Shown piece after piece: positions 18,701 to 21,749 of a stretch of 64,000 nt of DNA. This DNA comes from Litoreibacter albidus. Its GTDB lineage: Bacteria; Pseudomonadota; Alphaproteobacteria; Rhodobacterales; Rhodobacteraceae. The notes beneath the pieces were generated by a model. The model saw only the letters and a list, made by a program, of their open reading frames with translations. It had not been told where the DNA came from and made no database searches. The translations under genes and the position numbers were made by a program. The stretch spans positions 372,001-436,000 of the forward strand of contig NZ_FNOI01000002.1 in the NCBI RefSeq assembly GCF_900107015.1, in the 5' to 3' direction. The stretch's first letter is position 1, and each line of letters starts with the position of its first letter.

Positions 18701-19117
18701 AACCGTTTGGGCCGCTATGGCCCCTTTGAGGAGGATTTGTTCCCGCTGGCGCAACGCGTGGTCGACACGCCCGCGCTGGCCCACATCTTTGCCCGCGACG
18801 CGCTGGCGGAGGTCACCCTGACCGCCAAACTGCCGTCACTGGGCGGGCAATCCATGCTTGGCACCATCGACCGGCTGATCATCGGGCCGGACCGAATCCT
18901 CGCGGTGGATTTCAAGTCGAATGTGGTCGTCCCCGACACGCCGGAAAAAACGCCGTCCGGTATTTTGGCCCAGATGGGGGCCTATCTGGAAATGCTGGAG
19001 CAGCTCTATCCGGAAAAAACTGTAGAGGTAGCAATCCTTTGGACGCAATCGGCGCAGTTAATGCCCCTCCCACACGACATCGTGAGGTTGGCCCTAGGGG
19101 CTGCCCATACATCTTGA
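15779..19117 (+). CDS. addA: Double-strand break repair helicase AddA
   Basis: A 1112-residue UvrD/Rep-family helicase-nuclease and partner of AddB. Walker A is AANAGSGKTRVL (Lys30), motif II is ILVDEAQDTAPRQWD, motif III lies near VVGDQKQSIYSFQGADP, motif V/VI near VMTVHGAKGLEAPIV and RLLYVAMTRAE. The C-terminal nuclease has GTIDRLIIGPDRILAVDFKS with the catalytic Asp and Lys. It begins inside addB (ATGA) and ends 66 bases before trxA, which has its own likely promoter. Confidence 0.96.
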   Translation: MKRDAATAAQVAAADPKASTWLAANAGSGKTRVLTDRVARLLLDGVPPQRILCLTYTKAAASEMQNRLFQRLGDWAMMPDSKLRDSLTALGASEIAPQVLADARRLFAKAIETPGGLKIQTIHSFCASLLRRFPLEAGVSPAFAEMDDRAAKALREDVMEEVALHAPNAMAAFAQHFSGAEMDGFLQELLGRKELFADALSDDALKAAGGLDASISEDVILQSVFHGGEAELLRDVGAVLQGCTGKSDVQLGQSLSLLDCTAPSLALLAQFEKLFLGASGKSAGLPKGYPPTKGAKEALGALLDPFDALRMRVSEARPLRLALSAHAKNAALHRFAQAYLPRLEAHKQGRAWLDFDDLILKARALLTDPSVAAWVLFRLDGGIDHILVDEAQDTAPRQWDVVRLLAQEFTAGQGARADTERTIFVVGDQKQSIYSFQGADPDAFEAMRAHFDEALSAIGHPLKRQDLLHSFRSSKAVLDLVDASFTGDLKRGMGDRVEHVAFKQDLPGRVDLWDWIEETEKADNKDWFDPVDTVGDDHHSVILARQIAATIKDRLLHGQITEVKRVDGRDEQVTRRIEAGDFLILVQRRSTLFHEIIRACKDLGLPMAGADRLRIGAELGVKDLTALMRYLATPEDDLSLAAVLRSPLCGLSEAELFDLAHGREKYLRGALERQKARFKPIYDMLRDLRDNADYLRPYDLLERALTHHDGRNKLLSRLGVEADEGIAALLDQAMAYERADIPSLTGFLEWLARDEVTIKRQMDSAGNAIRVMTVHGAKGLEAPIVILPDTGQVANSVRDDILNHDGVAFWKVSAKDMPQVQVQLSDEIKARQREERMRLLYVAMTRAESWLIICGAGKPAKFEDGGWYAVAEAGMAALGADDGRVAHLDWPQDLGPRAAEAAVVRAALPDWVLSNAPPPPATSEPMSPSKLNGAKALPDPSGTALSEEDAKLRGTVLHRLLEHLPHAEDPMDLANRLGRYGPFEEDLFPLAQRVVDTPALAHIFARDALAEVTLTAKLPSLGGQSMLGTIDRLIIGPDRILAVDFKSNVVVPDTPEKTPSGILAQMGAYLEMLEQLYPEKTVEVAILWTQSAQLMPLPHDIVRLALGAAHTS

Positions 19118-19142
19118 CGCCACTGGCTGGGGTACCTAGGTT
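19114..19142 (+). promoter_or_regulatory. Probable sigma-70 promoter of trxA
   Basis: TTGACG (19114-19119) and TAGGTT (19137-19142) are 17 bases apart in the gap between addA and trxA. The start codon follows 41 bases later with GGAGG upstream of it. Confidence 0.45.
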
Positions 19143-19183
19143 CTGGTCAACGTCAATCACACACATTTTGGAGGGCTGAACAC

Positions 19184-19504
19184 ATGGCCACCGTCGCAGC
19201 AACTGATGCAACATTCGATGCCGAAGTCCGCAACTCGGACATTCCTGTCATGGTCGATTTCTGGGCCGAATGGTGCGGTCCTTGCAAACAAATCGGGCCA
19301 GCTCTGGAAGAGTTGTCTGCCGAATACGAAGGCAAGGTTAAGATCGTCAAAGTGAACATCGACGAAAACCCGAATGCCGCCGCCGCCGTCGGCGTGCGCT
19401 CCATTCCGGCCCTGTTCATGTTCAAAGACGGCGAAGTCGTCTCGAACAAAGTGGGCGCTGCCCCCAAGTCCGCCTTTGACGGCTGGATCAAAGAAACTAT
19501 CTAA
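19184..19504 (+). CDS. trxA: Thioredoxin
   Basis: A 106-residue thioredoxin, the general cytosolic disulfide reductant kept reduced by thioredoxin reductase. The active site WCGPCK has Cys31 and Cys34; the cis-Pro loop is [10 protein letters not shown]. Length and fold are those of classic Trx1. It follows addA by 66 bases, as in many alphaproteobacteria, but has its own promoter-like sequence and a strong terminator right behind it. Confidence 0.97.
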
Positions 19505-19531
19505 GCTGTCGGTCACATCGACTGAACGAAG

Positions 19532-19553
19532 GGCGCATCCGTTTGGGTGCGCC
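19532..19553 (+). terminator. Strong intrinsic terminator of trxA
   Basis: GGCGCATCC pairs with GGGTGCGCC (one G-T pair) around a 4-base loop, followed by seven T. It lies 27 bases after the trxA stop codon. Confidence 0.88.
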
Positions 19554-19725
19554 TTTTTTTGTGGCTGGTTCAAGGTAGTTGGACGGCAGTTAGGAGCACA
19601 TACCTACTGAGTTTCTGCCTGATGACGAATGTCAACTTACCATGTCACAAGACGCAACTCTCCCATGCACCGGAATCCGTTGCCAGAAAACTACTGGTCA
19701 GTTCAAAAAGGGGGAAGCTAGCGGG

Positions 19726-19815
19726 TTACTTCTGGTCAAACCACTTGGCGATAAAGTGCCATATGGCACTCGCCAAGAGACTGCCCAGAAACCCGAGAAC
19801 GAGGGTTTCCAGCAT
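19726..19815 (-). CDS. 29-residue hydrophobic peptide, type I toxin-like
   Basis: The frame starts MLETLVLGFLGSLLASAIW and ends KWFDQK: a single membrane-length helix with small residues (Gly, Ser, Ala) on one face, then aromatic and charged residues. This is the design of Fst/Ldr-type type I toxins, although sequence identity to them is low. AGGA lies 7 bases before the ATG. The coding DNA contains a long near-perfect inverted repeat, so the message would fold tightly, another feature of such toxins. No homolog is known to me; it could also be a harmless small membrane protein or a chance frame. Confidence 0.4.
   Translation of the reverse strand: MLETLVLGFLGSLLASAIWHFIAKWFDQK
19744..19777. 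repeat. Long inverted repeat inside the 29-codon ORF
   Basis: The perfect 16-bp palindrome AGTGCCATATGGCACT (19755-19770) is flanked by CTTGGCG (19744-19750) and CGCCAAG (19771-19777), which also pair; only ATAA on one side is unpaired. It could form an mRNA hairpin or be a protein-binding dyad. Confidence 0.85.
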
Positions 19816-19853
19816 CAGCTATTCCTGTGCTTGAGAAGCGTTCATACAAACGC

Positions 19854-19882
19854 AAAAGACCCCACAGGAAAGACCTATGGGG
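19854..19882 (-). terminator. Terminator-like hairpin upstream of the 29-codon ORF
   Basis: On the minus strand CCCCATAGG pairs with CCTGTGGGG (one T-G pair) around TCTTT, followed by TCTTTT. It lies between the minus-strand promoter-like site and the small ORF, so it may end a short RNA of about 120 bases or act as a leader attenuator. Confidence 0.5.
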
Positions 19883-19940
19883 CTACGAAAAACCCCGCGT
19901 CCTGCACGTCAGCAGAAAGCGAGGTTATCTCTATACGGAA

Positions 19941-19977
19941 TGCCTAAAATGCGCGGTGCGCGTTAAAGCCTTAGGCA
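19941..19977. repeat. Inverted repeat at a predicted minus-strand transcript start
   Basis: TGCCTAA (19941-19947) and TTAGGCA (19971-19977) pair, and an inner GCGC-ggt-GCGC pairs too. The right arm lies 8 bases downstream of a minus-strand TATAAT, so a transcript would begin with this stem. Confidence 0.6.
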
Positions 19978-19984
19978 GTGCGAA

Positions 19985-20012
19985 ATTATACCTGTTGTGA
20001 CAGAACCATTAA
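19985..20012 (-). promoter_or_regulatory. Minus-strand sigma-70-like promoter
   Basis: On the minus strand TTAATG (20012-20007) is followed after 16 bases by a perfect TATAAT (19990-19985). A second minus-strand TATAAT lies at 20034-20029 without a clear -35 hexamer. Perfect -10 hexamers are rare in this GC-rich window. Confidence 0.45.
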
Positions 20013-20362
20013 GTTCCGTCTGTTCCCGATTATACCGTCAGGTGCGCCACGCGGCGGAGAAATCCTGCTCACTCGTGCAATTCGGTTAGGCGTATTTAGT
20101 CACCGCTAGAAGTACTCATTTTGTTCTACACCGTCAACCATTGATGCAAACACGAAAAAACCGCCAAAGTTGGAGTGGGCGCGTCTCTACCCATAAGTAG
20201 TTTTTCACCCTTTTGCGTTTCCGCGCAACCTCACGCATTGCAACAATCCAAGAACAGATTCCTCAAAGCGGCCACCCATCTCTCGCACTGCGAACGGCAA
20301 CTCTGCCCGCATAGCGGACCTCCAAAGCTACAGACGCGCGGTGGGTGTTGGGCCCAACGAAA

Positions 20363-20390
20363 AAGCCCGAACCGTTTCCGGTCCGGGCTT
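20363..20390 (-). terminator. Intrinsic terminator of amtB
   Basis: On the minus strand AAGCCCGGACCG pairs with CGGTTCGGGCTT around GAAA, with a following T run. It lies 25 bases past the amtB stop codon. Confidence 0.85.
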
Positions 20391-20414
20391 GGTCTTTGAG
20401 TGTTGGCTCGGAGC

Positions 20415-21749
20415 TTAGTTGGTGAACTCTGGATAGGCTTCCATGCCCAGCTCTGCCATGTCGAGGCCCATGACTTCCTCTTCCTCGGTCACACGGATAC
20501 CGACTGTGGATTTGAGGATGAACCAGATCACGCCGGAGACAACGAAGGTGAACACACCGACCACGAGGATTGAGTAGAGCTGCACCCCGAGGTTGGCCGC
20601 GCTGTTGGTGAAGACAACCGCGATTGTGCCCCAGATACCGGCGAAGAGGTGCACCGGAATGGCGCCGACCACGTCGTCGATTTTCAGCTTGTCGAGGAAC
20701 GGCACCGCGAAGACCACGATCACACCGCCCACCGCGCCGATCAGCGTTGCTGCACCCAAGGACGGGGTCAGCGGCTCTGCGGTGATGGACACCAGACCGG
20801 CAAGCGCGCCGTTGAGCACCATCGTCAGGTCGACCTTCTTATAGAGCAGCTGCGTCAGGATCAGTGCCGCAACCGCGCCACCGGCCGCAGCCGTGTTGGT
20901 GTTGGCAAAGATGCGGCTGATGTCGCCGACTTGACCCGCTGTGTTCATGTACAGCTGCGAGCCGCCGTTAAAGCCGAACCAACCGAGCCACAGGATGAAC
21001 GTCCCCAGCGTGGCCAATGGCAGGTTGGAGCCCATGAAGGGAACCGTGCGGCCTTCTTTGTATTTGCCCAGACGTGGCCCGAGGATCAGCGCGCCAGCCA
21101 ATGCGGCCCAGCCCCCGACAGAGTGCACAACTGTGGACCCCGCGAAGTCTTGGAAGTCGATCACGCCGTCGATGCCCGGAGCCAGAAATCCGCCGCCCCA
21201 TTTCCAAGAGGCTTGGATCGGGTAGATGAAGGCTGTGAGCACGATAACGAAGAACAAGAACGGCCACAGCTTGATGCGCTCTGCCAAGGTGCCGGACACG
21301 ATTGATGCCGTCGTGGCGCAGAACATCAGCTGGAAGAAGAAGTCAGCGCCGACGGACGAATAGGTCAGATCAGGCGTCGCACCTTCCATGCCAACGGGCT
21401 CCAAGCTAGCGGTCGAGAACGCGCCGAGGATGCCGTCGATGGTCCAACCGTCGCCTGGGTACATCAGGTTATAGCCGATCAGGTAGTAGGCAATCGCCGC
21501 GAGCGAGAACAACGCGATGTTCTTGGTCAGCTGCATGGCCACGTTTTTGGAGCGCACCAAACCGGCCTCCAGCATGGCGAAACCAGCCGCCATCCAGAAG
21601 ACGAGGAAGCCCGCCACAAGGAACATGAAGGTGTTAAAGATAAAGCCGACCTCGGAGGAGATCGGAAGGACCTCCGCGTCTTGGGCCAGACCCATCGTTG
21701 GCAACGCGGCAAGCGCGGCAACAACGGGCAGAGTTCTAGTGAGTTTCAT
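20415..21749 (-). CDS. amtB: Ammonium transporter
   Basis: A 444-residue Amt channel protein for ammonium uptake, with an N-terminal signal-like segment (MKLTRTLPVVAALAALPTMG) followed by eleven expected membrane helices. Family segments are clear: MQLTKNIALFSLAAIAYYL, the DFAGSTVVHSVGGWAALAGA signature and the LGTFILWLGWFGFNGGS pore helix. It lies 24 bases downstream of glnK on the same strand. GlnK blocks the channel from the cytosolic side when nitrogen is plentiful, and this pairing is nearly universal. A terminator follows. Confidence 0.97.
   Translation of the reverse strand: MKLTRTLPVVAALAALPTMGLAQDAEVLPISSEVGFIFNTFMFLVAGFLVFWMAAGFAMLEAGLVRSKNVAMQLTKNIALFSLAAIAYYLIGYNLMYPGDGWTIDGILGAFSTASLEPVGMEGATPDLTYSSVGADFFFQLMFCATTASIVSGTLAERIKLWPFLFFVIVLTAFIYPIQASWKWGGGFLAPGIDGVIDFQDFAGSTVVHSVGGWAALAGALILGPRLGKYKEGRTVPFMGSNLPLATLGTFILWLGWFGFNGGSQLYMNTAGQVGDISRIFANTNTAAAGGAVAALILTQLLYKKVDLTMVLNGALAGLVSITAEPLTPSLGAATLIGAVGGVIVVFAVPFLDKLKIDDVVGAIPVHLFAGIWGTIAVVFTNSAANLGVQLYSILVVGVFTFVVSGVIWFILKSTVGIRVTEEEEVMGLDMAELGMEAYPEFTN

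Follow-up and report, generated by a model that had tools for sequence, protein, structure and literature searches.

The window (the whole 64-kb stretch of Litoreibacter albidus DNA analyzed here) contains, between the terminators of trxA (19184-19504, plus strand) and amtB (20415-21749, minus strand), a conserved block of approximately 720 bp (19594-20310, minus strand). The names of these genes, and of the neighboring genes mentioned below, are readings of translations. Within the block, a 29-codon open reading frame (ORF) is located on the minus strand at 19726-19815. Its translation product, MLETLVLGFLGSLLASAIWHFIAKWFDQK, has a single hydrophobic helix and is a candidate membrane toxin; the best 19-residue Kyte-Doolittle (KD) mean is 1.93, and neither proline nor cysteine is present. 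The Shine-Dalgarno (SD) sequence AGGA (19823-19826, minus strand) is found 7 nt 5' of the ATG. The first-pass annotation had described an ORF with this ribosome site and a hydrophobic helix, which was confirmed by the translation and by the position of the AGGA. Hydrophobic 19-mers (KD of ≥1.6) are encoded by seven ATG ORFs of 20 to 40 codons in the window, two of which, including the ORF at 19726-19815, also have an SD sequence. The interval had been noted as AT-richer, and its G+C fraction (19562-20362) is indeed 0.513, compared to 0.615 for the window; the five lowest-GC segments among 1,265 sliding 750-bp segments begin at 19401-19601.

The locus exists as annotated at first but is larger than initially noted, since homology extends from approximately 19594 to approximately 20310. 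In blastn comparisons with the copy from CANMWG (L077), positions 20310-19594 were covered at 87%, and the coverage by other copies was 20168-19594 (G230), 20296-19585 (Aestuariivita), and 20248-19646 (CANLYJ). The upstream part of the block (20150-20310, same strand) is a conserved piece. In Aestuariivita, CANMWG, and CANLYJ it has a terminator-like end (CCCGCC...GGCGGG TTTTTT), of which the window has a weakened form and which G230 and G526 lack or have in reduced form. The piece may be transcribed separately as a short RNA, or it may represent the end of an older neighbor. A role as antitoxin RNA was rejected: G230 lacks the piece and G526 has it in reduced form, so that it is not required.

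Insertion between trxA and amtB

The gene trxA was detected (E of ≤1e-30) in 20 of the 21 genomes of the genus, the source genome included, and in 13 of the 19 other genomes amtB was located within the fetched flank of trxA. The gap between both genes measured less than 200 bp in 8 of these 13 congeners and about 600 to 1130 bp in the remaining 5. An intergenic match to the block exceeding a 46-base scrap was found in none of the 19 congeners with trxA, and searches of the 20 congeners (17 of them at least 90% complete) with the peptide and with 351 bp of locus DNA gave no more than short matches. The best congener match, 26 bases of the leader block in G015 (E of 0.0018), was rejected, as it lies inside an unrelated longer reading frame. 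As the block was not found at trxA-amtB in the congeners, we consider it an insert in the source genome, which contains one copy of the element. In the congener G013 (L045 1821-2651), the same gap holds an unrelated insert of approximately 830 bp, and the site thus seems to accept inserts.

Distribution of the locus

In total, seven copies are known, namely, six close copies, including that of the window, and one distant copy (G546), all of them found in Rhodobacteraceae. The five other close peptides are 93 to 97% identical to that of the window. These copies were retrieved by several searches. (i) A peptide search of 394 genomes of the family gave three positives (the source genome, G230, and G320), i.e., 2 of the 393 other genomes. 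(ii) A peptide-core pattern run against one genome per species in 84,980 species returned three records, from Aestuariivita boseongensis (the same contig as in G320), CANMWG, and CANLYJ. (iii) A DNA search of 390 genomes of the order, which scored two candidates per genome, detected the source genome, G230, G455 (the CANLYJ contig), G526, and the distant G546. (iv) A peptide profile run against 385 genomes of the class produced no further full-length match and weak partial matches in 88 other genomes. Eight loci (two of which are the same place) were inspected among the 3 + 21 weak peptide matches listed, and none was homologous. No match was present in the 11 congeners of G230, 3 of which are at least 90% complete, or in the single congener of G320.

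The six close copies occupy six unrelated sites, and the neighboring genes differ in all of them: trxA and amtB in the window, a sugar-nucleotide cluster in G230, a cupin-HTH regulator and a GAF-domain reductase in Aestuariivita, an aminotransferase and a lipoprotein-like gene in CANMWG, polysaccharide genes in CANLYJ, and a cupin and a LOG-like gene in G526. Beside the CANMWG copy (L077 505-3925) there are three tandem paralogues whose translations resemble formylglycine-generating/sulfatase-modifying proteins. The peptide of the distant homologue G546, MLLEAFVSLLVSLLACVLWHFISRWLERRK, is 41% identical and retains WHFI and the second W; its locus also retains a hairpin 5' of the ORF and GGGAGGTGCGTC 3' of it. 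Because this homologue lies near a resolvase and a phage-family protein, it is possibly located on a mobile element. In the same resolvase-bearing region, an AAA-ATPase-like gene (L093 8980-10593; Pfam AAA_16 below cutoff) adjoins it.

No homologues were found in plasmids, phages, or IMG/VR viral contigs. A match in a Paracoccus plasmid was discarded, as it lies inside a longer reading frame, which we take to be DedA-like. A 16-base pattern from the 3' untranslated region (UTR) matched 19 viral contigs, which we estimate to be about the number expected by chance for 16 bases; three of these had a weak peptide match at a similar spacing that falls inside a longer unrelated frame. The comparison of genomes shows a locus that was dispersed sporadically to unrelated sites.

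Coding evolution of the ORF

The ORF alignment of the six close copies contains no gap, stop, or frameshift. A test set beforehand asked whether relatives keep the hairpins and break the frame, and none of the five other close copies was found to break it. Nine of the 13 changes in the ORF are synonymous and 4 are nonsynonymous, with 25% synonymous changes expected (P = 0.001); their distribution over the three codon positions is 3/1/9, and the four peptide replacements are V/A, V/I, I/V, and Q/H. Variable columns amount to 13 of 90 in the ORF and to 65 of 248 ungapped columns, plus 12 gapped ones, in the leader. Since the changes are mostly synonymous, the frame is coding, and the substitution pattern leads us to conclude that the ORF is a real coding gene. 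The earlier preference for a gene over a chance frame is borne out by this synonymous bias and by the 41% identical homologue in G546. A short hydrophobic peptide gene, which is a trait of type I toxin loci, is thus present here (29 amino acids, with coding evolution).

A second reading frame in the leader (19986-20072, with a GTG or ATG start and without an SD sequence) is open in all six close copies and crosses the invariant leader block; in five of the six, QQ[VPL] precedes its stop. With three synonymous versus four nonsynonymous changes, this frame has no coding signal and was rejected as a second gene; a mok-like role is conceivable.

Structure of the minus-strand RNA

The minus-strand RNA of 19700-19975 has a fold z score of -5.3, and none of 200 shuffles was as good. 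For single transcripts of the copies, z ranged from -2.95 to -4.94 (60 shuffles each), and the minus-strand folds were more stable than those of the plus strand by 15 to 27 kcal/mol in 6/6 copies. RNAalifold on the six copies gave a consensus structure of 138 pairs in which 97.6% of the cells were paired, compared to 37 to 45% when this structure was slid along the alignment. The covariation score exceeded that of 500/500 shuffles, and four double-changed pairs were counted, a value reached by 27/500 shuffles; the "further pair types" measure gave no excess, with 419/500 shuffles reaching the observed value, and the shuffle counts overstate independence because the copies are related, which inflates the measures other than "further pair types". 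Taken together, the folds and the covariation show that the minus-strand RNA is structured. The first reading of the locus, a minus-strand RNA with a long structured leader in a type I toxin-like layout, thus gains support from the covariation and from the strand comparison in 6/6 copies, and the individual elements it listed (the hairpin TGCCTAA/TTAGGCA, a terminator-like hairpin, and an inverted repeat in the ORF) are all present.

From the 5' end, the first element is a leader hairpin at 20054-20068 (minus strand, like all elements in this section), in which three of six pairs have changed on both sides and are still paired. The surrounding segment (20047-20077) occurs in two hairpin versions across genera, one shared by the window and G526 and the other by the remaining four copies, as if the segment had been exchanged between copies. 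Next, GGCGCACCUGACGGUAUAAUCGGGAA (20024-20048), which includes the TATAAT, is the 5' arm of a predicted 5'-3' long-range helix whose RNAalifold partner is 19651-19675. In this helix 94 to 98% of the cells are paired, four pairs vary on one side only, four have an unpaired cell, and no pair has changed on both sides in the six copies. It forms in three of the six single folds, with mean pair probabilities of 0.95 in Aestuariivita, 0.89 in CANMWG, and 0.42 in CANLYJ, and of at most 0.05 in the window, G230, and G526. The duplex was better than shuffles in CANMWG (0.012), whereas that of the window was not (0.251). The hairpin TGCCTAA...TTAGGCA (19941-19977), earlier regarded as a start-site hairpin, corresponds to helices 7 and 8 of the consensus structure. 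The closing pair of a small hairpin, GCGUUUGUAUGAACGC (19838-19853), exchanges among UG, UA, and CG. In one pair of a hairpin inside the ORF (19744-19777), both sides have changed in a compensatory manner, each by a synonymous substitution (GCG/ATC to GCA/ATT).

Candidate promoters and terminators

The likely promoter is TTGACG-N17-TACTTC (20109-20137, minus strand), as TTGAC-N17-TACTTY was found in 5/5 copies scanned; in the sixth copy (G526), the candidate promoter is degraded and its -35 box lost. The first-pass annotation had assigned the promoter to TATAAT (20029-20034). This hexamer is present and perfectly conserved and has no good -35 box, and no sigma-70 site was called (0, compared to 0.7 in shuffles). 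The compensatory changes in the hairpin just upstream (20054-20068) suggest a transcription start upstream of that hairpin, so that the TATAAT is probably inside the RNA. We infer that TTGACG-N17-TACTTC is likely to be the better promoter candidate; the TATAAT is possibly a second transcription start.

Directly 5' of the ORF there is a terminator-like hairpin with a U-tail (T2, 19854-19883, hairpin at 19859-19883, minus strand), and in G546 a similar hairpin with six T's precedes the ORF, a short distance behind a TTGACA box. In the region 19000-20600, the terminator scan called three sites, and a call alone is weak evidence since shuffles gave 2.0. A G+C-rich hairpin (T1, 19893-19924, minus strand), which the terminator scan did not call, is followed by T's in most copies, with the T run lost in Aestuariivita and interrupted in G230. 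The hairpins at 19859-19883 and 19893-19924 are both conserved in the close copies. The terminator scan called no terminator 3' of the ORF. On the plus strand, no antisense promoter with two good boxes was conserved across the five copies scanned (all close copies except G526), although consensus scans are weak evidence of absence. The best conserved antisense pairs, TTGCCA/TTCAAA (19680) and TTGAGA/CAAAAG (19831), have a weak -10 box and were rejected, as was a TANNAT near 19650 seen by eye, which is lost in G526.

Predicted occlusion of the start site

A fold-back element in the 3' UTR (19652-19691, minus strand) is an imperfect complement, with 31 pairs, of 19805-19842, which contains the SD sequence and the start codon. 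In five of the six close copies, the energy of this duplex, a helix first picked from the folds, was better than that of 98.3 to 100% of 1000 shuffles (shuffle fractions of 0.001, 0, 0.017, 0.002, and 0.003). The duplex was no better than shuffles in G526 (0.214) and in G546 (0.253), and the helix, with 95.7% of its cells paired, has no covariation. The fold-back is thus predicted by computation on the sequence. In the consensus fold, the SD sequence and the start codon are placed in a small hairpin (19811-19831), and the same 3' UTR segment pairs with the 5' leader. The surroundings of the SD sequence are identical in the close copies save one base in G526. The predicted state of its GAA varied among the single folds. 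The GAA was paired in the window and CANMWG, so that occlusion is full in two of six folds; for G230 and Aestuariivita, the unpaired share was about half to two thirds; and the folds of CANLYJ and G526 placed it in a loop (at least 0.95 unpaired).

Interpretation of the locus

The explanation that we regard as reasonably probable is that the copies represent a small new family of loci that resemble type I toxin loci, have a self-folding mRNA, and spread sporadically. A minus-strand mRNA of approximately 455 nt, assumed to start near 20102, would encode the 29-residue single-helix membrane peptide, and at full length it would be largely silenced by its own fold. The SD/start region would be held either in the local hairpin or by the complementary 3' UTR segment, whose alternative partner would be the 5' leader. 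Trimming of the 3' end or refolding would then open the SD sequence, and the peptide would enter the inner membrane, where it would either slow the cell or kill it; a putative repressing RNA would normally hold the toxin off. In this scheme, we infer the promoter, the 3' processing, the toxicity, and the antitoxin. Since a well-conserved antisense promoter, a 3' terminator, a known family, and the Fst/Ldr motif are missing, the locus is classified as working like a type I toxin rather than as a proven one. A more specific and tentative idea, to which we give little weight, is that the copies form an undescribed family of mobile type I toxin loci of Rhodobacteraceae that are controlled mainly in cis, with a 3' UTR segment that switches between the 5' leader and the SD/start region in a largely self-repressing mRNA; attenuation at the terminator-like hairpin 5' of the ORF may be a further step.

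Four other explanations were considered. The ORF may encode a nontoxic small membrane protein, a partner or regulator of a larger one, behind a signal-sensing and possibly attenuated leader in which the hairpin before the ORF acts as a switch. This is unlikely, although it would agree with the presence of a terminator-like hairpin before the ORF in G546 as well, there close behind TTGACA, with a length and a single helix that suit regulatory peptides as well as toxins, and with an SD sequence that is partly open in several predicted folds. However, no gene neighbor is constant in the six close copies, and the patchy presence and the complementarity between the 3' UTR and the start would be more usual for a toxin locus. 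Rather improbable is a structured small RNA of approximately 250 nt that ends near 19854, with the ORF as a secondary read-through product. The call of 19859-19883 as an intrinsic terminator and the conservation of this hairpin and of that at 19893-19924 in close copies are in its favor, but chance alone would give about two such sites in a region this large, conserved structure and sequence run through the ORF and about 75 nt past it, and the ORF shows coding evolution and less variation than the leader. We give very little credit to a small non-autonomous mobile repeat with ends and hairpins serving transposition and an incidental ORF: the six unrelated insertion sites, the size of approximately 720 bp, and the absence from the congeners searched would fit, whereas the source genome has only one copy, the ORF has a coding signal, and inspection by eye revealed neither a common end nor a terminal repeat or target duplication. 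Finally, the ORF could be a frame that arose by chance in ordinary AT-rich intergenic DNA, as suggested by its shortness and by its not being found in congeners. This explanation is refuted by the frame conservation and synonymous bias across the six copies and by the 41% identical G546, and its probability is negligible.

The locus is not covered by Pfam, NCBIfam, or Rfam. If the peptide is a toxin, the locus would provide a compact natural example of 90 bases constrained both by coding and by RNA folding, and it would mark sporadic gene transfer.

Comparison with known type I systems

No Pfam or NCBIfam toxin family matched; isolated weak hits, for example to Pfam AMO (E of 0.0049) in one of five members, were judged to be due to chance. 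The Hok profile had no match in either database at an E of ≤10 for five peptides, within the HMMER filters. Rfam gave no hit at the gathering score in the window, and three matches at E values of 1.1 to 6.6 are attributed to chance; PHROGs gave weak matches to families of unknown function (best E of 0.026). Among the open-access papers searched, none that connects type I toxins with Roseobacter or Rhodobacterales was found, and among the matches listed for Rhodobacteraceae no title contained a type I system.

The layout had initially been likened to that of Fst/Ldr toxins, and the peptide does resemble them in its small size, its single helix, and its charged C terminus. The motif of this family is PXXXGC, according to PMC8309996. 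This motif is absent here, no Pfam Fst or Ldr match was obtained at an E of ≤10, and the genome has no second copy, so that kinship with Fst/Ldr is not supported. The Fst (par) locus has a convergent antisense RNA that shares a terminator at the 3' end; here, no terminator was called 3' of the ORF and no good convergent promoter was found, in consensus scans that are weak evidence of absence.

Similarities with tisB/istR-1 of E. coli are the 29-residue membrane peptide (PMC8309996) and an inert structured primary transcript (PMC4147584). In contrast to that system, no divergent sRNA was found at the locus and the peptide has no Pfam match to a TisB family. TisB is under LexA/SOS control, whereas an exact copy of the alphaproteobacterial SOS box GTTCN7GTTC is absent from all seven loci.

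The AapA peptide of the aapA/IsoA system is short. The host of aapA, Helicobacter pylori, belongs to the Epsilonproteobacteria, its peptide is unrelated to that described here, and no IsoA-like antisense transcript is predicted at our locus. The short membrane peptide is a shared feature. An anti-SD element at the 3' end in combination with local SD hairpins, as described for aapA (PMC6733600), is similar to what is predicted here.

Compared with hok/sok, no Sok-like antisense was found at the locus. In hok/sok, mok overlaps the toxin gene; the leader frame of our locus is open in 6/6 copies and lies upstream, as mok does, but it has neither an SD sequence nor a coding bias, is far upstream, and does not overlap the peptide gene. 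The resemblance to hok/sok of plasmid R1 and to chromosomal hok lies in the long structured leader and in the mRNA fold, which in hok hides the start until 3' processing (PMC4147584, PMC6733600) and would do so here. According to a review and a primary paper (PMC4147584, PMC6733600), the translation of hok and aapA mRNAs is inhibited by their own fold, a control similar to that predicted for the present locus.
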